Made by a program: the position numbers and the translations under genes. Under the pieces are notes generated by a model. It ran no database searches. It saw nothing but the letters and a program-made list of their open reading frames with translations, and was not told the origin of the DNA. Below, in pieces: positions 5,081-29,162 of a stretch of DNA of 54,408 bases. Source of the stretch: a virus. Each line of letters opens with the position of its first letter. Positions within the stretch are counted from its first letter, which is position 1. The DNA is taken from positions 1-54,408 of IMG/VR virus record IMGVR_UViG_3300002835_000252. The stretch is one strand, 5' to 3'.

Positions 5081-6148
5081 CTAGATTTTAGAAAAAACAA
5101 AAACTGGTTCATATTTGTGACCGGCACCCATAACAGCAGAAAGAATTAACTGCAAAGTTTCAGTATGAACAAAGCCAACTTCTGTTGCATATTTAATTGT
5201 CATTTCTTCTAAGTCTTTGTACTTTGGTGTATTGGCAATGTTTATTAACATATATCCACCGGGTTTAAGACCATGATAACAATTAGAAAACGTTTTACGA
5301 AGGAAACCTGAACCCCATTCATTTTTCGTTGGAAACTTATTATAGGATTGTGTTTCCTCATCTGCATACTTCTCGGTATCAAAATACGGCGGTGATGTAA
5401 AACACAGGTCTAAACTTTCTTTGGGTGGTAGGAAATCCTCCGACCCCATACAATGAAGTTGAATATCTTTTTTAAGATAAGAAAAATCATCACGTAGTTT
5501 ACAAAGACCTTCAAATGTTTTCGTAGATGGTTCTGTTCCAATATAAGTTTTGATGTATGGTGATGCAAGGGCACCAACCAATCTACCACCCCAACCACAA
5601 GACATATCCCACATAACACCATCACCACCATAATTTTTATAGATAACACCGGCGGCAGTTGGTCTGAAATTAGAAACACCCTGAACACCTGAATAGATTT
5701 TGAGTGATTGACGTAAACGGTTTTCTTGAAACGAACTACCCCAATGTTTTGATAACCATTTCAAACATTTACGAATAGTCATTTTGAATGTTTGGTCATT
5801 CAGAAAATTATCCATAGGAGACATTTTAGAATTGCCACACTTTACTTCCATTGCATGAGGAAAGTATGACCACGCCAATCGAAGTCCGTTCATGGCTTGA
5901 ATTATATCACCATCTTTGAAAATAGAATCATAATCAAACTGTTGAAGTTTTCTCATGTGTTCATGTTTTTCTTGTTCGGTGATTTTCATATACGGATAAC
6001 CCCATTTCCGGTAATACTGAAAAACACAATCAATGGTATCATCCAAGTCACGTTTACCCTCAAAAAATTCATCTGTTTCTTTTTTCAAACGAACTTCAAG
6101 TGGGTCAACATCAAAAAACTTTATTAAACTTTCAGAATTTACTTTCAT
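5081..6148 (-). CDS. SAM-dependent SPPY-type DNA methyltransferase paralogue A
   Basis: A 355-residue protein of the Rossmann methyltransferase class. Motif I is MWDMSCGWGGRLVGA near residue 181 and the catalytic motif IV is FTSPPYFDTEKY near residue 250; motif I comes before IV. SPPY is the catalytic signature of N4-cytosine and some N6-adenine DNA methyltransferases. Shared with its three paralogues are the GWG(G/D)R turn, SPPYF(N/D)xExY and an ETQS sequence just after. There is no separate target-recognition domain, so specificity would rest in the N-terminal 150 residues. Its start overlaps the stop of paralogue B as ATGA, so the two are co-translated. The modified base and whether the target is DNA or RNA are unknown. 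Confidence 0.8.
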   Translation of the reverse strand: MKVNSESLIKFFDVDPLEVRLKKETDEFFEGKRDLDDTIDCVFQYYRKWGYPYMKITEQEKHEHMRKLQQFDYDSIFKDGDIIQAMNGLRLAWSYFPHAMEVKCGNSKMSPMDNFLNDQTFKMTIRKCLKWLSKHWGSSFQENRLRQSLKIYSGVQGVSNFRPTAAGVIYKNYGGDGVMWDMSCGWGGRLVGALASPYIKTYIGTEPSTKTFEGLCKLRDDFSYLKKDIQLHCMGSEDFLPPKESLDLCFTSPPYFDTEKYADEETQSYNKFPTKNEWGSGFLRKTFSNCYHGLKPGGYMLINIANTPKYKDLEEMTIKYATEVGFVHTETLQLILSAVMGAGHKYEPVFVFSKI

Positions 6149-7767
6149 GGTTTATAGAAAATAAAAATCGGTTCGATTTTCCAGTATTCACCCTTAAACC
6201 AAACTTTATTTGTAAGGGCTTCTATATCAGAGTTACCAATCATTTTTGCCATTAACATACCTATTTTACCTTTATATTCCATACCAAGTTCCTTGAGAAT
6301 CTGGATAGAATCTTCTTCCAAATGTATAACTTTATTAGATGATACACGAATGTTTGCAATATTCCAACAGAGGTATCTATCGTGTTTTAGATATTCCACC
6401 GCCGTTGTTAATGTTGGACGAAGAAAGTTATCTCTCCAATCAGAATATTGTGAGTATGCCTTAAATGATTGTGTTTCATCTTCAGAGTATTGTTCTCGGT
6501 TAAAATACGGCGGTGAAGTAAAAACAAAATCTAACTTACCACGATATTTTTGAAACTTTGGATTGTTCCCAATCAATTCAGAACCATCTTGAAAAACTTC
6601 ATACGTATGATTCTCTTCGGTTTGGAAAAATTTATTTGAGATTGAATTTCCTTTTTCACCAATAGACCGAAGATAAAAATCAGCAAGATATTCATATCTC
6701 GAAATACCAAGTTCCGGAATGAGGTTGTCTGTATTTGGGTCTGTTCCTACATAATGTATAGGACGAGATACAGACATAGCCCCAAGTATTCTACCACCCC
6801 ACCCCGAACTTGGATCATATACGTTTACCTTTTGTGACGCCGGAATATGTTTTGTAAAGTGTTCATATAGAAACTTGGCAGTCATAGGCGGGAAATTTAC
6901 TGCCGGTTGACCAAGAGAAAGACGAAACGTTTGTAATGCACTTGGGAATATTCTCTTGTTCTTCTCATACGCCTTAATAAGGTAAACGTTTATTCTTGGT
7001 TCCGATGAATCTTTCTTTATGTAGTATGTATCTACTAATTCATTCATATCACCAAGATAGGTAATCATTTCAGATGTAACCAACCCTTCTTCAAAAAACT
7101 GGCGTATTTGGTCTGCCTTAATTGTAAGGTACTTTGTATATTCACGATTGTATTCGTCCAACGTACAGGATATTTTAGATATACGTAATCCTTGCCCATC
7201 AAATCTACCATCACCATTTTTGTATGCAAGAAAGAAATCGTGTAATGTTTCTCCCTGACAAAAATATGGATTCTTTAATTGAGTTGAAAGTATTGACTTT
7301 GAATATGAATACATAGAATCATTATACAATGTTCGTTTCATTGTATGATGAAATTTATCTTTTAATTTATCCGTGAAGTGGTCATAGATAGAAAGTGCAT
7401 TATCACTTGATATTCCGGCAGATATTTTTGTTTTCAACATCGTTGGGAAGAATTGATTACAGGCAGTTGCATTCTTTGTAAAGTTAGCAACCACACCAAC
7501 AACACTAGGGTCATTTGGTGTAATTAACGTATGATACAGAGAACCTGCATCAAGTTGACGAAGACGAGAGAATGAACGAATTATTTCCCCCTCATCTTTA
7601 CCAACCAAAGGTGGTTGACCATTCTCGTCCCAGTCTGTAATTACTCGTGTACGTAAATCTTCCAACCATTCATAAACCTGGTCGGAGTTATACGTCATCA
7701 ATTCCCCATACGTTATATTCGTAGGCCATTCACGAATATTACTTTTCTCGTAAAAGTATTTTTTCAT
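6145..7767 (-). CDS. SAM-dependent SPPY-type DNA methyltransferase paralogue B (long form)
   Basis: At 540 residues this is the longest of the four paralogues. The extra length is an N-terminal region of about 280 residues without motifs I know. The catalytic part has NVYDPSSGWGGRILGAM (motif I, near residue 318) and FVFTSPPYFNREQYSEDETQS (motif IV, near residue 415). The segment before motif I, QPAVNFPPMTAKFLYEHF, matches SNFRPTAAGVIYKNY in paralogue A, so A and B form one pair. No good ribosome binding site precedes the ATG. It lies between the sliding clamp and paralogue A and may act on replicating phage DNA. Confidence 0.78.
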   Translation of the reverse strand: MKKYFYEKSNIREWPTNITYGELMTYNSDQVYEWLEDLRTRVITDWDENGQPPLVGKDEGEIIRSFSRLRQLDAGSLYHTLITPNDPSVVGVVANFTKNATACNQFFPTMLKTKISAGISSDNALSIYDHFTDKLKDKFHHTMKRTLYNDSMYSYSKSILSTQLKNPYFCQGETLHDFFLAYKNGDGRFDGQGLRISKISCTLDEYNREYTKYLTIKADQIRQFFEEGLVTSEMITYLGDMNELVDTYYIKKDSSEPRINVYLIKAYEKNKRIFPSALQTFRLSLGQPAVNFPPMTAKFLYEHFTKHIPASQKVNVYDPSSGWGGRILGAMSVSRPIHYVGTDPNTDNLIPELGISRYEYLADFYLRSIGEKGNSISNKFFQTEENHTYEVFQDGSELIGNNPKFQKYRGKLDFVFTSPPYFNREQYSEDETQSFKAYSQYSDWRDNFLRPTLTTAVEYLKHDRYLCWNIANIRVSSNKVIHLEEDSIQILKELGMEYKGKIGMLMAKMIGNSDIEALTNKVWFKGEYWKIEPIFIFYKP

Positions 7768-7786
7768 TTATAGATTCCCCACAATC

Positions 7787-8506
7787 TTAGTTGTTTTCCA
7801 ATTTAACAAGGAAGTATCGTGATTCATAATCGTCAATATCAAATTCAATTTTTGCAAGTCCTTCGGAAGAAACCAACATCGTTCCACCATTCAAATCTTT
7901 ATTTGACGCGAGAATCTCACGGAAATACTTTGCAGAAAATGAAATCGGTTCAATATCACTTTGGGCTGAACATTCAACGTCAATAGAAATTCTATTTGAG
8001 TTGGCATTAGAATGTCCAATTACAATTTGATATTTGTTAAGTTTCTTATTCTTAACAACCGCAAATGTTTCAATATCAGACAAAGCAGATTTTGCTTTAA
8101 TAAACTTATCGATAAAATCCTTTGTGATATTAATCGTTAATTCAAACGGAGGAAGTTCCTTCAATTCGGGAGTCGGTGGAATAACTGCCAAGTCTGCCAA
8201 CATATAATTCACCGTAGTTGACTTATCATCGAGGGTAAGTGCAAATGCCTTATCGCCGGTAGAGTTAATTACGAAGTTTACATCGTTACCCAAAACACCT
8301 AAAAACTTCAACAACAAATCTGTATTATAGACGCCAAACTTTGAAGCGTCTGAATTAAACTTATCCAACGAAATTTCACCAACAACATTCTTATCATCTG
8401 ATATGAAACGTGTAGAAAGTTTACCATTAGAGTTCCAAGCAACCGATTGTACTAATCCACCCAAGTGATACTTATTGATAAAATTTATCAATCTTGCCTT
8501 TTCCAT
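7787..8506 (-). CDS. 45: Sliding clamp, T4 gp45-like
   Basis: A 239-residue protein, close to the 228 of T4 gp45. Sequence identity is low but the layout fits a PCNA-like clamp: two domains of alternating strands, a central PPFELTINITKDFIDKFIKA segment that starts the second domain as in gp45, and a C-terminal strand series ending SRYFLVKLENN. It forms the trimeric ring that tethers gp43 and, in T4, activates late transcription. AAAGGAG lies before the ATG. Its place between the methyltransferases and polymerase, with gp44 close by, supports the call. Confidence 0.82.
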   Translation of the reverse strand: MEKARLINFINKYHLGGLVQSVAWNSNGKLSTRFISDDKNVVGEISLDKFNSDASKFGVYNTDLLLKFLGVLGNDVNFVINSTGDKAFALTLDDKSTTVNYMLADLAVIPPTPELKELPPFELTINITKDFIDKFIKAKSALSDIETFAVVKNKKLNKYQIVIGHSNANSNRISIDVECSAQSDIEPISFSAKYFREILASNKDLNGGTMLVSSEGLAKIEFDIDDYESRYFLVKLENN

Positions 8507-8556
8507 ATACTCTCCTTTAATTTATTTAAAACTTATTATACAATATACAAAATTTT

Positions 8557-9408
8557 TTAGAAAGAAAAAAACTTTTGTGCAACTTTTTTACTCTCCGAAG
8601 GAAATTCCCACGCAAGTGCATTGTAAAAGGCACGGAGTTTACCATCGAGTTCAGAGTTAAACAATTCATTTGCATCAAAGTATTCTTTTATAAACGTAAT
8701 TATTTCTTCTGGATCGGAATCTCCTCTGAAGGCAAGTTCCTCTAATCCATAACGGTTGTTCTTCAAATATGCTATCTTTACCTTATCCCCGTTTTTTATT
8801 GGTGGAAATTTAGGCGGACACTTGAATAACTTTAGTAACTTATTATAGTTAATAGACGCCTTAACATGAGACGGAGTTCCTTTTGCAAATGTTCCAAGAA
8901 CAGCATCCTTTATCGGGTCTTGATATTTTTTAATGTCTTTTATGGAAGAGTTCTTTGCAACTTCCGCGAATAGAACTTCACCCAATAATCGTTTGAACGT
9001 TAAAATATTTTCGTCAATTTGATCTTTTGATTTCGATTTCAAAATATCTATAAGAACTTCCTTCATAAACTTTTGAAATGATTTCGGGAATGAAGAACGA
9101 ACAACGTCAAGTCCTTTAACTTCTAACTTATCCATAGGAACTCCGTTGTCTGAAATAATCCATAGGGCATACCTCTTCTTCTTTACCCAAAAGCCAGTAC
9201 GTCCAATCATTTCCTGTTTGATTTCAAGTCGGTGTTTCTCCGTGTTGAATATCTTTTTAGCAAATACATCATAGAATCCATTAACATAATTCTGAACTTC
9301 TGTTGCAATCTCGTAAATCTTGCCTGTCATCAACTCGACGTTGTTTGTATCGATTTCTGGGAAACGATTTTTTACAAGTGGTAGGCATGAAACAAATACG
9401 GAATCCAT
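8557..9408 (-). CDS. 43: DNA polymerase family B, C-terminal part (gp43B: end of motif C and thumb)
   Basis: A 283-residue C-terminal piece of a T4-type family B polymerase. It opens MDSVFVS, so residue 2 is the second Asp of motif C (YxDTDS), a metal ligand needed for catalysis. KKKRYALWI matches the KxY motif, and GLDVVRSSFPKSFQKFMKEVL matches the thumb of gp43. The upstream residues of motif C (AYVDT) are encoded just before it in another frame, ending in a TAA that overlaps this ATG as TAATG. The catalytic site can be complete only if gp43A and gp43B associate, or if the break is bridged in translation. Seen directly: the split. Inferred: that the pieces work together. Confidence 0.88.
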   Translation of the reverse strand: MDSVFVSCLPLVKNRFPEIDTNNVELMTGKIYEIATEVQNYVNGFYDVFAKKIFNTEKHRLEIKQEMIGRTGFWVKKKRYALWIISDNGVPMDKLEVKGLDVVRSSFPKSFQKFMKEVLIDILKSKSKDQIDENILTFKRLLGEVLFAEVAKNSSIKDIKKYQDPIKDAVLGTFAKGTPSHVKASINYNKLLKLFKCPPKFPPIKNGDKVKIAYLKNNRYGLEELAFRGDSDPEEIITFIKEYFDANELFNSELDGKLRAFYNALAWEFPSESKKVAQKFFSF

Positions 9409-9476
9409 TACGTGTCCACGTAGGCAACATGATCTACGTGGACATTCTCCTTTCTAATAATTTGTTTGATTTTCAT
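9408..9476 (-). CDS. 22-residue linker ORF carrying the first half of polymerase motif C
   Basis: AAAAGGATTTAT precedes an ATG at 9476; the frame reads MKIKQIIRKENVHVDHVAYV then DT and stops. AYVDT joined to DSVFVS of the next ORF would restore an intact motif C, YVDTDS, with only the five bases TAATG out of place. The N-terminal MKIKQIIRKE resembles the start of the C-terminal half of split inteins, but the usual His-Asn end is missing. It may be a remnant of a fracture event, a real peptide, or the signpost of a recoding event. No promoter is evident. Confidence 0.5.
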   Translation of the reverse strand: MKIKQIIRKENVHVDHVAYVDT

Positions 9477-9503
9477 ATAAATCCTTTTTATTTAAATATA
9501 CTA

Positions 9504-10439
9504 TTATTCCTGTGAATAGTCAAATTCTGTTATAGTTCCGTCTTCTTCATAGATACGGATGAATTTACATTTTAGAATTTCTCCAATTTTGTCTTGACGC
9601 CATTTGTCAATGTGTGGGTTTCTACCCATTCGGTGACGCCTTTCGTCAAATTCTATAACAACATTATTTTTCTCGTCATACCCATCTACAAAGAAGCTCG
9701 TATTTGGAACTTTATACTCTCCACCATTTTCGGCATGGAGGGATGTATATCCTTTTTCTTTTCCATAACTTTCAATTATTGGAATCGAAATTGGATTATA
9801 CGGTGGATGGAACGGAAGTCCTACTCTTTTTATTCGTTCTATCGCCTTTTCTCTCATTTTTTGTATTGATTCCGTATTATGTTTTTTTCCTAGCCACGGG
9901 TGCTTAAATTTGTTGTAGTGTTCTTTGTGACTAATTGACATCTTTTTTTTAGATTCATCTGTATGATGTTTACCCTTGAATGGATTTTCATTGTATTTGT
10001 ACCACTCCTTTGACCTCTTGGATAATAATTCACGGACGGATTCATCTTCCATTCTTTTTTTAGTAATCCCACTCAAAGTATTCTTTGTCTCATCCGAATG
10101 TGTTTTTCCTTTGAATGGGTTATCGTGATTTTTGTGATATTCTTTTTGTCTTTCTGATATTACTTTTCTCACTTCTTCCGATGAAAGTTGTTCTTTCTTT
10201 GTAATAGAAATCTTCTTCTTTGTTTCATCTGAATGTTTCTTTTTATAGAATGGGTTTTTTTCACCGCATATATCCGCGTGATTTTGTTTTAGTTTTTCTC
10301 GATGTTCTTCACTAAAAGTTCTCCCAATCAAAGAACAAGATATACACGGTGAGTTTGATAATACTGCTTTATTGAAGTAATACTTATTTGTTGTTTTCAG
10401 TTCCTTATTGCATTTTGGGCAGTTACGAATGTATTCCAT
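9504..10439 (-). CDS. Homing endonuclease with NUMOD3 repeats and a Vsr/EDxHD-like nuclease domain
   Basis: A 311-residue protein lodged between the two halves of gene 43. The N-terminus has a CPKCNKEL...CISC zinc finger, followed by at least four NUMOD3-type DNA-binding repeats (NPFYKKKHSDETKKKIS, NPFKGKTHSDETKN, NPFKGKHHTDESKKKMS and HPWLGKKHNTESIQKM). The C-terminal about 90 residues, with FFVDGYDEKNNVVIEFDERR, a following H and DKWRQDKI, look like the Vsr-type endonuclease fold of fractured-gene homing endonucleases. GGAG precedes the chosen ATG at 10439, and a TATTTATA motif lies 35 bases upstream. It probably cuts uninterrupted polymerase genes and caused the fracture. Confidence 0.85.
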   Translation of the reverse strand: MEYIRNCPKCNKELKTTNKYYFNKAVLSNSPCISCSLIGRTFSEEHREKLKQNHADICGEKNPFYKKKHSDETKKKISITKKEQLSSEEVRKVISERQKEYHKNHDNPFKGKTHSDETKNTLSGITKKRMEDESVRELLSKRSKEWYKYNENPFKGKHHTDESKKKMSISHKEHYNKFKHPWLGKKHNTESIQKMREKAIERIKRVGLPFHPPYNPISIPIIESYGKEKGYTSLHAENGGEYKVPNTSFFVDGYDEKNNVVIEFDERRHRMGRNPHIDKWRQDKIGEILKCKFIRIYEEDGTITEFDYSQE

Positions 10440-10473
10440 ATAATCTCCATAGTTGTTCAAATTCATTCTTACA

Positions 10474-10481
10474 TATAAATA
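10474..10481 (-). promoter_or_regulatory. Candidate late promoter motif (TATTTATA)
   Basis: Minus strand ACATATATTTATATGTAAG, about 35 bases before the ATG of the gene 43 homing endonuclease. Confidence 0.5.
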
Positions 10482-10508
10482 TATGTAATTTAAAAAAAGT
10501 GTACGGAG

Positions 10509-12287
10509 TTATTTGAGACTATCTATTATTTCATCGGTTTCCAAAAGTTCGGAACCCTTTATTGCAATAAGAACGCCATTTCTCAAAATAGGGATGATGT
10601 TGTTTTCATAGTAAATTCGTTTGGAATCATCTTCCATAACAACTTCTATTTGATAACCCAACTCCTTATTATACTTCATATTGATGGCGGCTTCTGTCTT
10701 TTTGATAACCGTTTGACCGGAAAGAGTTACGGCCTCTGCATTATCAATATCGTGCCATCGAAATGCCGGAAGCCCAAGTGTTCCGTAGAGTGAATTGAGT
10801 AGAATCTTTTGAACCAACTGACGCTTCTTATAGAACTCGTACTTCTCAGTATTCCCTTCTTTACCCCATTTTTTCATTTCATCTTTATATTCAACTCGTT
10901 TATCAAACCATTCGTTCAACACCGCCGGAATAAGTCCTACGAAATCTGTACTATACATTACACCATTTGACGCAACTGTATATTTATACTTCTCCAAAAA
11001 ATTCTGCAACTTCTCCCTGCCTATACGTTCTCCATTGATTATGTATTCATTTTTTTCCCCACGAATATACTTATCGACATCCCAATCCAATATCTTCGCG
11101 ACTTTTGTTTCAGGTGAAATATTCAAAGTCATAATGATTGACGGATATAGTGAAGTTAAGTCCAAGTCATAAATCCAATCATATCTACCGGGGATAGGGT
11201 CTTTAACAAACGCACCGATAAATCCATCTTGGCCAGACTCCTTTAATTCTTCCATTCGTTCTCTTCTATCCGCCGGTTTATTTGGTGCAACAATATCGCC
11301 TGCACGTTTTAAGTAAGTCAACAACGCACCCTCAAGGTATTTTGAAGAATATACAAAGTCTTCGTAGGGAACATGACCAACATGACAAATACCACGAATG
11401 AGGTCTATGTATTGTAATTTCTTATCTAATTCGATAACAAGTTCCACGTCAGTTATATTATACTCGATGAATTGTTCAATATCATTTTCCATCAAGTCAT
11501 CGAGATTTCCTTCGTATTCAATCTTACCACGACCAAGTTCTTTTAAAGAAATTGCATTTAGTGCGTATGAAGGGAGTTCTGTATAGGAAAATTTCTTGTA
11601 CATCACCATGTAATCTAAAACAGATACACCGGCAATAGTATAACGATTCCGGTATGGTGAGTAAAACAATTCACCAATCGCAGATAATTTACTTGCAACC
11701 TTTTTCCCAAGTACCCGTTTAATTCTATTGTAGATATAAGGTATATCGAACGCATCACAATTCCACCCCGTTATAACGTGTGGTTGAATTGATTGAATTG
11801 CATCTACAAATTTAAGTAGAAGAGTTTTTTCGTCGGAACATGGAACTATAATTCTGTTACCAACCTTTTTACTTTGTACACGATTTCTCTTATCTAAAAT
11901 AAGTACCGTATATTCATCTAATCCAGAATCGTGATATGCTATAGAAGTGATTTCATTGTTACCTAATTGTGGGTCAGGTATTCCTGTAATCATTTCCACC
12001 TCAATATCCAACGTCATTGTAACAATACCATTTGAAGGTAAGTCTGAATCACTATACAAATCTACAAGAAGTCTTGTAGTTTCAGGGACATCGGATTCAA
12101 AAAGACTTGGGTCATTCTTAACAAAATGTGTTATCTTTGATAATTTATCCCCATAGATAGAACGAAATTTGCCGTTGGGGTCTTTTTTATAGGCGTATGG
12201 TGTATAATTAAAATGAGTAAGACCTTTCTTATCATCCCATACCCACGCCTCATTTGTAGTTGTTTTTACGAAAATATTTTGGTACAT
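10509..12287 (-). CDS. 43: DNA polymerase family B, N-terminal part (gp43A: exonuclease, fingers, motifs A and B)
   Basis: A 592-residue N-terminal piece of T4-type polymerase. The proofreading exonuclease is intact: TLDIEVE (Exo I, D94 and E96), NCDAFD (Exo II, near 176) and YNITD (Exo III, near 276). Polymerase motif A is DLTSLYPSII near 376 and motif B is KILLNSLYGTLG near 494. Similarity to gp43 stops after NMKYNKELG near residue 544. The last 48 residues (YQIEVVMEDD...IIPILRNG...SELLETDEI) are foreign and look like part of an intein Hint fold, without the starting Cys or Ser. Motif C lies in gp43B. It begins three bases after the preceding small gene. Confidence 0.93.
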   Translation of the reverse strand: MYQNIFVKTTTNEAWVWDDKKGLTHFNYTPYAYKKDPNGKFRSIYGDKLSKITHFVKNDPSLFESDVPETTRLLVDLYSDSDLPSNGIVTMTLDIEVEMITGIPDPQLGNNEITSIAYHDSGLDEYTVLILDKRNRVQSKKVGNRIIVPCSDEKTLLLKFVDAIQSIQPHVITGWNCDAFDIPYIYNRIKRVLGKKVASKLSAIGELFYSPYRNRYTIAGVSVLDYMVMYKKFSYTELPSYALNAISLKELGRGKIEYEGNLDDLMENDIEQFIEYNITDVELVIELDKKLQYIDLIRGICHVGHVPYEDFVYSSKYLEGALLTYLKRAGDIVAPNKPADRRERMEELKESGQDGFIGAFVKDPIPGRYDWIYDLDLTSLYPSIIMTLNISPETKVAKILDWDVDKYIRGEKNEYIINGERIGREKLQNFLEKYKYTVASNGVMYSTDFVGLIPAVLNEWFDKRVEYKDEMKKWGKEGNTEKYEFYKKRQLVQKILLNSLYGTLGLPAFRWHDIDNAEAVTLSGQTVIKKTEAAINMKYNKELGYQIEVVMEDDSKRIYYENNIIPILRNGVLIAIKGSELLETDEIIDSLK

Positions 12288-12288
12288 A

Positions 12289-12588
12289 TTACGATGCCAT
12301 TAATTTGTCTAAATCATATCGGTCGCGGGATTGACGTATGATTGAGAATGTTGAATAAAATTTTTCTTTAGTATAAGTCTTAAAGGCATCACCATCTTTT
12401 ACGAGGTAAGAATCTTTACATAATAATTCACCCAAAGAAGTTCTTACACAAAATTGAGTTGGGTAAATCTTATCCCTAATATAAGAAAAATTCCACATAT
12501 TACAAAATTCTTTTGCCTGTTGTTCAGAACCATCGAACTCGTAGGCAATAAATTTAGTTTTAATCAATTCTACATTTAATATGTTCAT
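12289..12588 (-). CDS. Hypothetical protein upstream of DNA polymerase
   Basis: A 99-residue protein I do not recognise. It looks like a small alpha/beta fold (FIAYEFDGSEQQAKEFCNMW near the start; FKTYTKEKFYSTF near the end), with three Cys that do not form a metal site pattern. GGAG precedes the ATG, and the stop is followed after one base by the gp43A start, so translation of the two is coupled. It may regulate or accompany the polymerase, but nothing in the sequence shows this. Confidence 0.75.
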   Translation of the reverse strand: MNILNVELIKTKFIAYEFDGSEQQAKEFCNMWNFSYIRDKIYPTQFCVRTSLGELLCKDSYLVKDGDAFKTYTKEKFYSTFSIIRQSRDRYDLDKLMAS

Positions 12589-12600
12589 CTATAACTCCGA

Positions 12601-13758
12601 TTATTTCTTTTTAAAAATCCAGCAAGGTTCCGCAAATTTTGATTTATCGTTTTCATCAATTCCCGGATCTGCCGGTCTTACTGAAAGTTCCATTCCGATT
12701 GCACCTTCAAATATACAATCTTGTTTCTGTTTCATATAGTCAACCATAGGTTCACATATTTTAACATACGATTGTTTTGAACGGTCGTATATGTCTGCTA
12801 TGTTTACCACCATGTACCCGCCGGATTTTAACGTACCCCAAACATTATCGAGTGCCTTATGTAAGAAGTTTTCATTCCAAGAATTTATATCTTTGTAACG
12901 AACCCAACTTTGAGTCTCATCGTAAGAATAACGCTCGGTATTAAAATATGGCGGGGATGTAAACACAAGGTCAACCTTATTTACCCATTCAGAATTATCC
13001 CAATCTTCGGCAGGACTTTCATATAAATATACGGATTTTTTTTCTTCAAACCAACCTAAATTTTTATCGTAGAAATTTATCTGTTCCCGATATATGGGAT
13101 GATTTTCTTTTCGAGGGTCTATACCAATATACGTTTTTGCATTAGATGCATAAAATCCAGCAAGTCTATCTCCCCAACCGGCAGAGAAATCTAATATAAC
13201 TTTTGCACCCATCATTTCATATAACGCCTTTGCAACATTAGGTTTGAATTGTGAGCAGATATATTTACGAAGACCCATAGCGCCACGAACAACCGACTTA
13301 TCAATCATAGGATATTTTAAAGTATAGAATGCCTTTGCTATAGATTTCATGGAACGAAGTAGTGTCCAAGACCTAGCAGGTCCGGGTGATTGGGTTGCAT
13401 CAACTTCCCATCGATTTTTCTGTTGAAAGAAATTTGAGGCGGAATTACCAACGTTGTTTCTTGAAAAGTACAGAGACTTGCCATTCCAAGTAAATGGAAA
13501 TGGATATTCGTGACGGGCCTTCCAATCACCTTCAACTAATAATTCATTCCAACGTATTCCTTTTAACTTCATAAATTCAGACCTGGCATCTTCAATCGTA
13601 ATATCTGCATACGGAAGTGGATAGTCCATGAGAACCGTTCCGATTGATTCTAAAACATCCTCCTGATTGAAGGTTTCTTTAATGTATTTCCATTCCGTCT
13701 CATCGATAATAAAGTACGGCTTCATTCCACGGAATTTATCAAAATAATCTAAATACAT
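12601..13758 (-). CDS. SAM-dependent SPPY-type DNA methyltransferase paralogue C
   Basis: A 385-residue protein. Motif I is VILDFSAGWGDRLAGF near residue 190 and motif IV is LVFTSPPYFNTERYSYDETQS near residue 265. It is clearly closest to paralogue D (23242-24474). Both start with a (K/R)(F/Y)RGM(K/S)PY segment, share LLVEGDW and LRKYI-SQFKP, and use GWGDR where A and B use GWGGR. It lies between dUTPase and the polymerase block with no long gap. The N-terminal 180 residues are likely the target-recognition part. The base and sequence modified are not predictable by eye. Confidence 0.8.
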   Translation of the reverse strand: MYLDYFDKFRGMKPYFIIDETEWKYIKETFNQEDVLESIGTVLMDYPLPYADITIEDARSEFMKLKGIRWNELLVEGDWKARHEYPFPFTWNGKSLYFSRNNVGNSASNFFQQKNRWEVDATQSPGPARSWTLLRSMKSIAKAFYTLKYPMIDKSVVRGAMGLRKYICSQFKPNVAKALYEMMGAKVILDFSAGWGDRLAGFYASNAKTYIGIDPRKENHPIYREQINFYDKNLGWFEEKKSVYLYESPAEDWDNSEWVNKVDLVFTSPPYFNTERYSYDETQSWVRYKDINSWNENFLHKALDNVWGTLKSGGYMVVNIADIYDRSKQSYVKICEPMVDYMKQKQDCIFEGAIGMELSVRPADPGIDENDKSKFAEPCWIFKKK

Positions 13759-29019: not shown

Positions 29020-29095
29020 TTAATTTTTGTTCATAATTTTGTTTTTTGGGTGTAAGTCATTTAATATCAAGAACTTAAAAAGTTTTCCACATAAC

Positions 29096-29133
29096 AAAAA
29101 AGACTTACAAATTTTACTCTGTAAGTCTTTTTT
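29096..29133 (-). terminator. Hairpin terminator after the 42-residue ORF
   Basis: Minus strand AGACTTACA and TGTAAGTCT arms (9 bp) followed by six T; the A run on the other side could let it work both ways. Confidence 0.85.
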
Positions 29134-29162
29134 GAAGGTATAGTATATCTGTACTACAATCT

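Follow-up and report, generated by a model that had tools for sequence, protein, structure and literature searches.

Genes broken in two by split inteins were reportedly described by Dassa and colleagues in 2009, with a free-standing EDxHD/Vsr-like endonuclease between the halves and intein parts on both, and a different enzyme, NrdA-a/NrdA-b of Aeh1, is said by Crona and colleagues (2011) to be divided by a mobE (HNH) insertion that brings no split intein half. We analyzed gene 43, encoding the DNA polymerase gp43, in a 54,408-nucleotide (nt) stretch of viral DNA (IMG/VR record IMGVR_UViG_3300002835_000252, positions 1 to 54,408, a fragment of a phage genome; hereafter, the window), which belongs to a family of fractured gene 43 loci in which, unlike the genes ascribed to Dassa and colleagues, no splicing residues are left. 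A PolB1 split intein is found in gp43 of the Aeromonas phages Aes123 and Aes508 (PDB 9HTH; PMC11923092) and also in PTm5, MIJ3, and CP21; in Aes123, PTm5, MIJ3, and CP21 it is located at DTD^S and has Ser1, a TxxH motif, and a C-terminal His-Asn. In phages 25 and 44RR, gp43 is split into 43A and 43B, which assemble into a two-subunit gp43 without splicing (PMC2988022, citing Petrov, Ratnayaka, and Karam 2010); that split features a Seg-like endonuclease or an untranslated spacer, and intein-derived tails are absent from its description in the review (PMC2988022). Our best explanation for gene 43 of the window, to which we assign a probability of roughly 0.6, is that its pieces are joined by a clasp left by a splicing-dead split intein, that the gene carries a second break at the sequence TAATG, and that the polymerase is made of three chains. 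Although fractured genes and split gp43 were already known, the splicing-dead variant is new.

The window resembles the Aes123-type systems in that a T4-like gp43 is broken in the region of motif C, an N-intein part lies on the upstream half and a putative C-intein part on the downstream half, an endonuclease gene, putatively of the Vsr type known from the Aes phages and PTm5, lies between the halves, and the tail of the upstream half aligns with their N2 region. It differs from these complete inteins in that block A, TxxH, and His-Asn are missing here, and in that the fracture is located approximately 12 codons upstream of DTD^S, with the YVDTD strand on the downstream side.

Results

Gene 43 carries two different breaks

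Comparison with Pfam and PHROGs identified gp43A and gp43B of the window as successive parts of one family B polymerase, with the exonuclease domain, motifs A, B, and C, and the thumb all found across the gp43 pieces, and with exactly two matches to PF00136 in the 54-kb record. Motif A (DLTSLYPSI) and motif B (KILLNSLYG) are in gp43A, whose tail of about 48 residues begins after NKELG. On the minus strand, gp43A is followed by an endonuclease open reading frame (ORF), a 22-residue ORF (ORF22), TAATG, gp43B, and a gene in the position of gp45:

12287..10509, minus strand: gp43A, 592 amino acids, N-terminal part of a family B DNA polymerase (exonuclease, motif A, motif B) with a C-terminal tail
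10512..10655, minus strand: gp43A tail, YQIEVVMEDDSKRIYYENNIIPILRNGVLIAIKGSELLETDEIIDSLK, a homologue of the N-intein N2 half, without Ser/Cys1 and without TxxH
10466..9504, minus strand: endonuclease ORF, 320 amino acids, a homing endonuclease gene with four NUMOD3 motifs and a putatively Vsr/EDxHD-like C-terminal region
9482..9486, minus strand: Shine-Dalgarno (SD) sequence AAGGA of ORF22, 5 nt upstream of its ATG
9476..9408, minus strand: ORF22, MKIKQIIRKENVHVDHVAYVDT, stop codon TAA, read as the detached gp43B head, with a C-intein-like strand and the first motif C strand with its first Asp
9450..9476, minus strand: basic candidate clasp strand MKIKQIIRK, net charge +4, resembling a C-intein start
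9447..9453, minus strand: SD sequence AAAGGAG within ORF22, at a linear distance of 38 nt from the gp43B AUG
9413..9444, minus strand: perfect 11-bp stem, TGTCCACGTAG/CTACGTGGACA, with a 10-nt loop, leaving a GGAG-AUG gap of 6 nt once folded
9410..9406, minus strand: TAATG, in which the ORF22 stop overlaps the gp43B start, between DT and DS of motif C
9408..8557, minus strand: gp43B, 283 amino acids, C-terminal part of a family B polymerase, starting ATG-DSVFVS at the second Asp of motif C
8506..7787, minus strand: gene after gp43B, with the position and sequence type of the sliding clamp gp45, named by locus comparison

An earlier description made from the letters of the window (the sequence-only reading), of a split gp43 with an endonuclease between its parts, ORF22 ending AYVDT-TAA, and gp43B beginning ATG-DSVFVS after TAATG, proved correct throughout, including its point that the two Asp of DTD lie on separate ORFs. 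The equivalent residues of RB69 are D621 and D623, which form the catalytic triad with D411 (PMC3792054). In the window, three ORFs encode the three Asp of this triad.

Gene 43 is whole in 146 of the fetched loci. The closest unsplit relatives have a continuous frame, NKELKTDDIDYVQYVDTDSVFVS, with the pattern ...NKELKTDDxDYVQYVDTDSVFVS, and because they read without interruption through YVDTDSVFVS, the break at TAATG is not a product of chance. A separate fracture, common to eight further contigs representing seven distinct loci, is located about 12 codons upstream of motif C, directly after NKELG, with a tail on the A side and a head on the B side. In one of these, a 115-kb contig (L044; L numbers denote fetched loci), gp43A ends NKELG-YEVIVKMEDNSTRTYYSNNFISIMRNGILTKVKASELLETDDIV, another gene comes next, and gp43B starts MKIKKIIKNENVEIDHVQYVDTDSVFVS, with the head fused and YVDTDS intact. 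As the head is still fused to gp43B in L044, the main fracture does not lie inside motif C, and the view that the gene is broken exactly within that motif has to be revised: only the additional TAATG lies there. The same tail and head are present in L044, L092, L093, and LR756508 (L001, 484 kb), while L083/L089, L085, and L087, which stop short of gp43A, have the same head; a search of viral contigs with the tail recovered only L044 and L004, and the remaining split loci were reached through head patterns. TAATG within motif C was found only in the window and in contig 3300002408_001176 (L004), which matches the window base for base over 12,695 bp, TAATG included, and possibly comes from the same sample; a search of 2.9 million viral contigs brought up no further lineage that has it, and neither did the other fractured loci fetched. 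Judged against its relatives, gene 43 here carries two different breaks, a recurrent upstream fracture and a TAATG particular to the window, and ORF22 represents the head that has been separated from gp43B.

Further fragmentation was observed in other gp43 genes. L092 (contig 3300025122_000062, minus strand, ~6113-4100) has gp43 in at least three pieces, with a further break upstream of motif B that is accompanied by a second endonuclease-like ORF, and its motif C cassette contains a second endonuclease and a head remnant, ATGAAGATTAAAAACATACAAAAAATAGAAGTC. In LR756508 (7986-11051 and 14048-15922), mobile elements have left their trace on gp43 three times, as complete inteins at the motif B site and at YTD^TDS of motif C and as the tail/head fracture. 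The gp43 fracture of L044 is filled by a glycosyltransferase-like ORF (7272-7918, by eye) in place of the endonuclease, and in cyanophages S-CREM2 and S-N03 gp43 is annotated as two-part, the first part having only ~488 residues.

The tail and head resemble intein parts that have lost the splicing residues

A profile of five aligned tails was compared with 13,776 ORFs from all loci. This revealed that the tails themselves ranked first, followed consecutively by seven N-inteins (E 0.005 to 0.55), namely the clamp loader inteins of L087 and L085 and the PolB inteins of Aes508, Aes123, CP21, PTm5, and MIJ3, with unrelated ORFs appearing only from E = 3. In the reverse search, a profile of four PolB N2 regions retrieved other N-inteins and then the tails of the window (0.025), L044 (0.17), and L092 (0.43), and alignment of the tail and N2 profiles with hhalign gave a probability of 91%. 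An AlphaFold model of the tail, generated from input rows that left out LR756508, had a mean predicted local distance difference test score of 86.7 and comprised four strands, a short helix, and a strand. When this model was searched with Foldseek, inteins took ranks 1-6 in the PDB at E-values >1, 9HTH (the split intein of Aes123 PolB1) being one of them, and the top matches in BFVD were phage split-intein DNA polymerases with a probability of 1.0. No significant family was found for the tail in Pfam. Based on the profile ranking, the fold model, and the Foldseek matches, we conclude that the gp43A tail is the N2 half of an N-intein, and not simply a foreign tail as the sequence-only reading had it. 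A degenerate copy of motif C, an identity suggested for the tail by tblastn against cyanophage polymerases, was rejected because the motif C strand belongs to the B side and inteins match the tail better.

For the head, the ORFs of all loci were scanned for starts of the form M-x-x-K-K/Q-I; besides the gp43B heads, these comprised three genuine C-inteins and two other proteins. The ORF22 start, MKIKQII, resembles that of a C-intein. The residues required of a splicing intein were missing at each position considered: in the tails examined, gp43A passes from NKELG directly to N2 with no block A Ser/Cys1 at intein position 1; Y..N, H..T, L..E, or F..T stand where block B would have TxxH; and the heads have neither a C-terminal His-Asn nor a +1 Ser/Thr/Cys, MKIKKI.. 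leading directly into the polymerase strand. With Ser/Cys1, TxxH, and His-Asn all missing, these remnants are predicted to be unable to splice. The tails have net charges of -2 to -10, corresponding to the acidic N2, and the heads of +2 to +5, corresponding to the basic first C strand; acidic and basic regions of this kind are said to make the first contact in split-intein assembly (review PMC11766414). As N2 and the C-intein strand form the pair of this capture step, a non-covalent clasp is their most likely role, and we consider it likely that tail and head act in this way to join the polymerase pieces.

Tail, endonuclease, and head behave as a mobile cassette

Homology (E 1e-21 to 1e-93) connects the endonucleases that lie in the fractures of the window, L085, L087, L092, and L093. 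For the window enzyme Pfam gives NUMOD3 only, and kinship to annotated VSR endonucleases runs solely via L092 and L087. The split state is patchily distributed among the 110 gp43B proteins placed on a tree, where it requires at least six changes, all forced by well-supported branches; the window, L044, and L093 have unsplit nearest relatives, at 90, 93, and 90% identity, respectively. From these changes, the unsplit nearest relatives, and the homologous endonucleases, it appears that tail, endonuclease, and head behave as one mobile cassette, for which the tree calls for at least six gains or losses. A group I or II intron was also considered, and an Rfam scan of positions 8300-12700 on both strands, at E up to 5, gave no match. 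Genuine split inteins with endonuclease genes were noted in L087 (6593-11875) and L085 (5427-7576, reverse complement), where they sit in IMPDH (L087) and clamp loader genes (L085, L087); in one L087 intein the split lies very close to the N end.

A predicted hairpin would shorten the distance from a Shine-Dalgarno sequence to the gp43B start

SD-like sequences are present upstream of 28 of the 52 window ORFs examined, and none lies within 20 nt of the gp43B start. Between AAAGGAG in ORF22 and the gp43B AUG lie 2 nt, the 11-bp stem with its loop, and 4 nt. Perfect stems of at least 11 bp were observed twice in the 54 kb, against 0.3 expected from shuffles; the other, a terminator-like 15-bp stem with a 10-nt loop, is located at 29095-29134. 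L044 has no comparable hairpin. In T4 genes 38 and 25, a hairpin shortens the SD-AUG distance from 22 to 5 nt in one case and from 27 to 11 nt in the other (PMC3014915). The gp43B start likewise has an SD sequence and a stable hairpin between it and the AUG that gives a short folded distance (38 to 6 nt), but here the hairpin is contained in the reading frame of the upstream ORF and reaches to the overlapping stop/start. This suggests that a hairpin-split ribosome binding site serves the gp43B AUG and that TAATG holds a real start codon. Folding predicts the AUG to be partly paired, with an unpaired probability of 0.4-0.5, making the strength of the start uncertain.

Beyond the gp43 genes, two ORFs that contain TSPPYFN, a motif seen in DNA methyltransferases (by eye; window 6145-7767 and 12601-13758) flank the replication cluster.

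Discussion

In the explanation that we favour, gene 43 would have been invaded by a mobile cassette of split-intein origin with its own, putatively Vsr-like homing endonuclease, and the intein would have become splicing-dead, with only its N2 half at the gp43A C-terminus and its first C-strand, at the start of ORF22 or, in the relatives, of gp43B, being left. A non-covalent clasp between the two would bring the motif C strand up to gp43A. What the sequences show is the homology to inteins, the loss of the catalytic residues, the recurrence and mobility of the fracture, and purifying selection; docking is what we infer. In the window, TAATG would separate the clasp-plus-YVDT peptide from the rest of gp43B, which would be started at its own AUG by the hairpin-split ribosome binding site, by termination-reinitiation, or by both. 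The polymerase would then consist of gp43A, the 22-mer, and gp43B, with the 22-mer clasped to gp43A and its YVDT strand beside DSVFVS, such that chain ends meet to complete motif C at the tight turn separating its two strands. To our knowledge, this is the sharpest cut known through a polymerase active site. That non-splicing mobile split inteins give a two-chain clasped polymerase which in the window has become an active site of three chains, with DTD split between two, is a tentative proposal, and a three-chain polymerase, which presupposes that TAATG is genuine and the phage viable, is put forward with the same reserve.

The sequence-only reading had offered three ways out of a divided DTD, among which assembly from several chains is the best supported, since the SD sequence placed by the hairpin before the gp43B AUG argues for a three-chain active site rather than recoding; bridging by the ribosome looks unlikely from the sequence. 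As for its suggestion of another polymerase, no other family A or B enzyme was seen in the 54-kb record, itself a fragment, and LR756508 (484 kb) yielded no family B polymerase besides the fractured gene, with one family A-like match below the curated cut-off.

Several points weigh against this explanation. Single matches between tail and inteins are weak (E 0.005-0.5, and >1 with Foldseek in the PDB), leaving the case to ranking and fold, and a combined tail and head profile gave one weak intein match only in the PDB (9HTH, E 0.08). The heads are too short for a homology statistic, which makes their assignment to C-inteins weaker than that of the tails. With the hairpin, the Q that every fetched close relative has before YVDT becomes A, as if RNA structure had taken precedence over protein sequence or a template switch had taken place, and the perfect stem could itself be the by-product of a template switch, made in one event. 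In favour of the explanation, gp43B in comparison with unsplit relatives has a ratio of non-synonymous to synonymous substitution rates (dN/dS) of ~0.03, only approximate because synonymous sites are near saturation, and a ratio of non-synonymous to synonymous differences (pN/pS) near 0.09; such strong conservation indicates function before TAATG and cannot date TAATG itself.

The alternative that survives best, although we regard it as unlikely, is that fracture and clasp are functional whereas TAATG is a recent disabling mutation, or that co-existing variants supply an intact, head-fused gp43B. It draws its weight from TAATG being known from one strain only, through two identical contigs, with no other lineage sharing it, and from the loss in ORF22 of the otherwise conserved Q. 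However, two assemblies agree on TAATG, the 11-bp hairpin and SD sequence fit the new AUG and are absent from L044, and the closest relatives are 90% identical in gp43B, which would have allowed time enough for adaptation to TAATG.

A little less probable is that a dead intein has left tail and head behind as neutral debris and that the halves associate by the polymerase fold alone, as in phage 25, where 43A and 43B co-purify and are active (PMC2988022). Debris would be expected to erode or vanish, yet both parts are kept in 5/5 loci where both can be read, and the tails of the window and L044 differ with a pN/pS of 0.29 (pS 0.79, pN 0.23). Because this purifying selection is apparent even against L044, which is without the endonuclease, the tail likely has a role of its own.

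That the five bases of TAATG are an assembly or sequencing artefact at the hairpin is improbable: the site comes from a single strain and adjoins a perfect hairpin, and re-joining restores the ancestral sequence, but an in-frame stop overlapping an AUG with an SD sequence at a workable distance would be a strange error, and the second contig, L004, is identical. Slighter still is the chance that ribosomes bridge TAATG by frameshift or bypass to give a continuous YVDT..DS. The strong hairpin just 5' of the stop has a superficial likeness to recoding signals, but the sequence has no slippery heptamer, TD would be lost in a hop from GAC to GAT, the product of a -1 shift at the stop would carry an additional VM between DT and DS, and a 5-nt hop would find no matching landing codon. 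An active trans-splicing split intein restoring a one-chain gp43, which homology to the genuine split inteins of T4-like gp43 might suggest, is already contradicted by the sequence, with block A Ser/Cys1, TxxH, His-Asn, and the +1 nucleophile all lacking, and can be dismissed.

We return to the proposed splicing-dead clasp and what it would mean for these phages. The hairpin-split start site may have come with the TAATG break. If tail and head hold the polymerase halves together, a former splicing element, the split intein, now serves as a permanent assembly tag. Such a clasp, if true, would show a selfish fracture fixed as a subunit interface, and would provide natural pairs in which the capture step of split inteins can be tested on its own.

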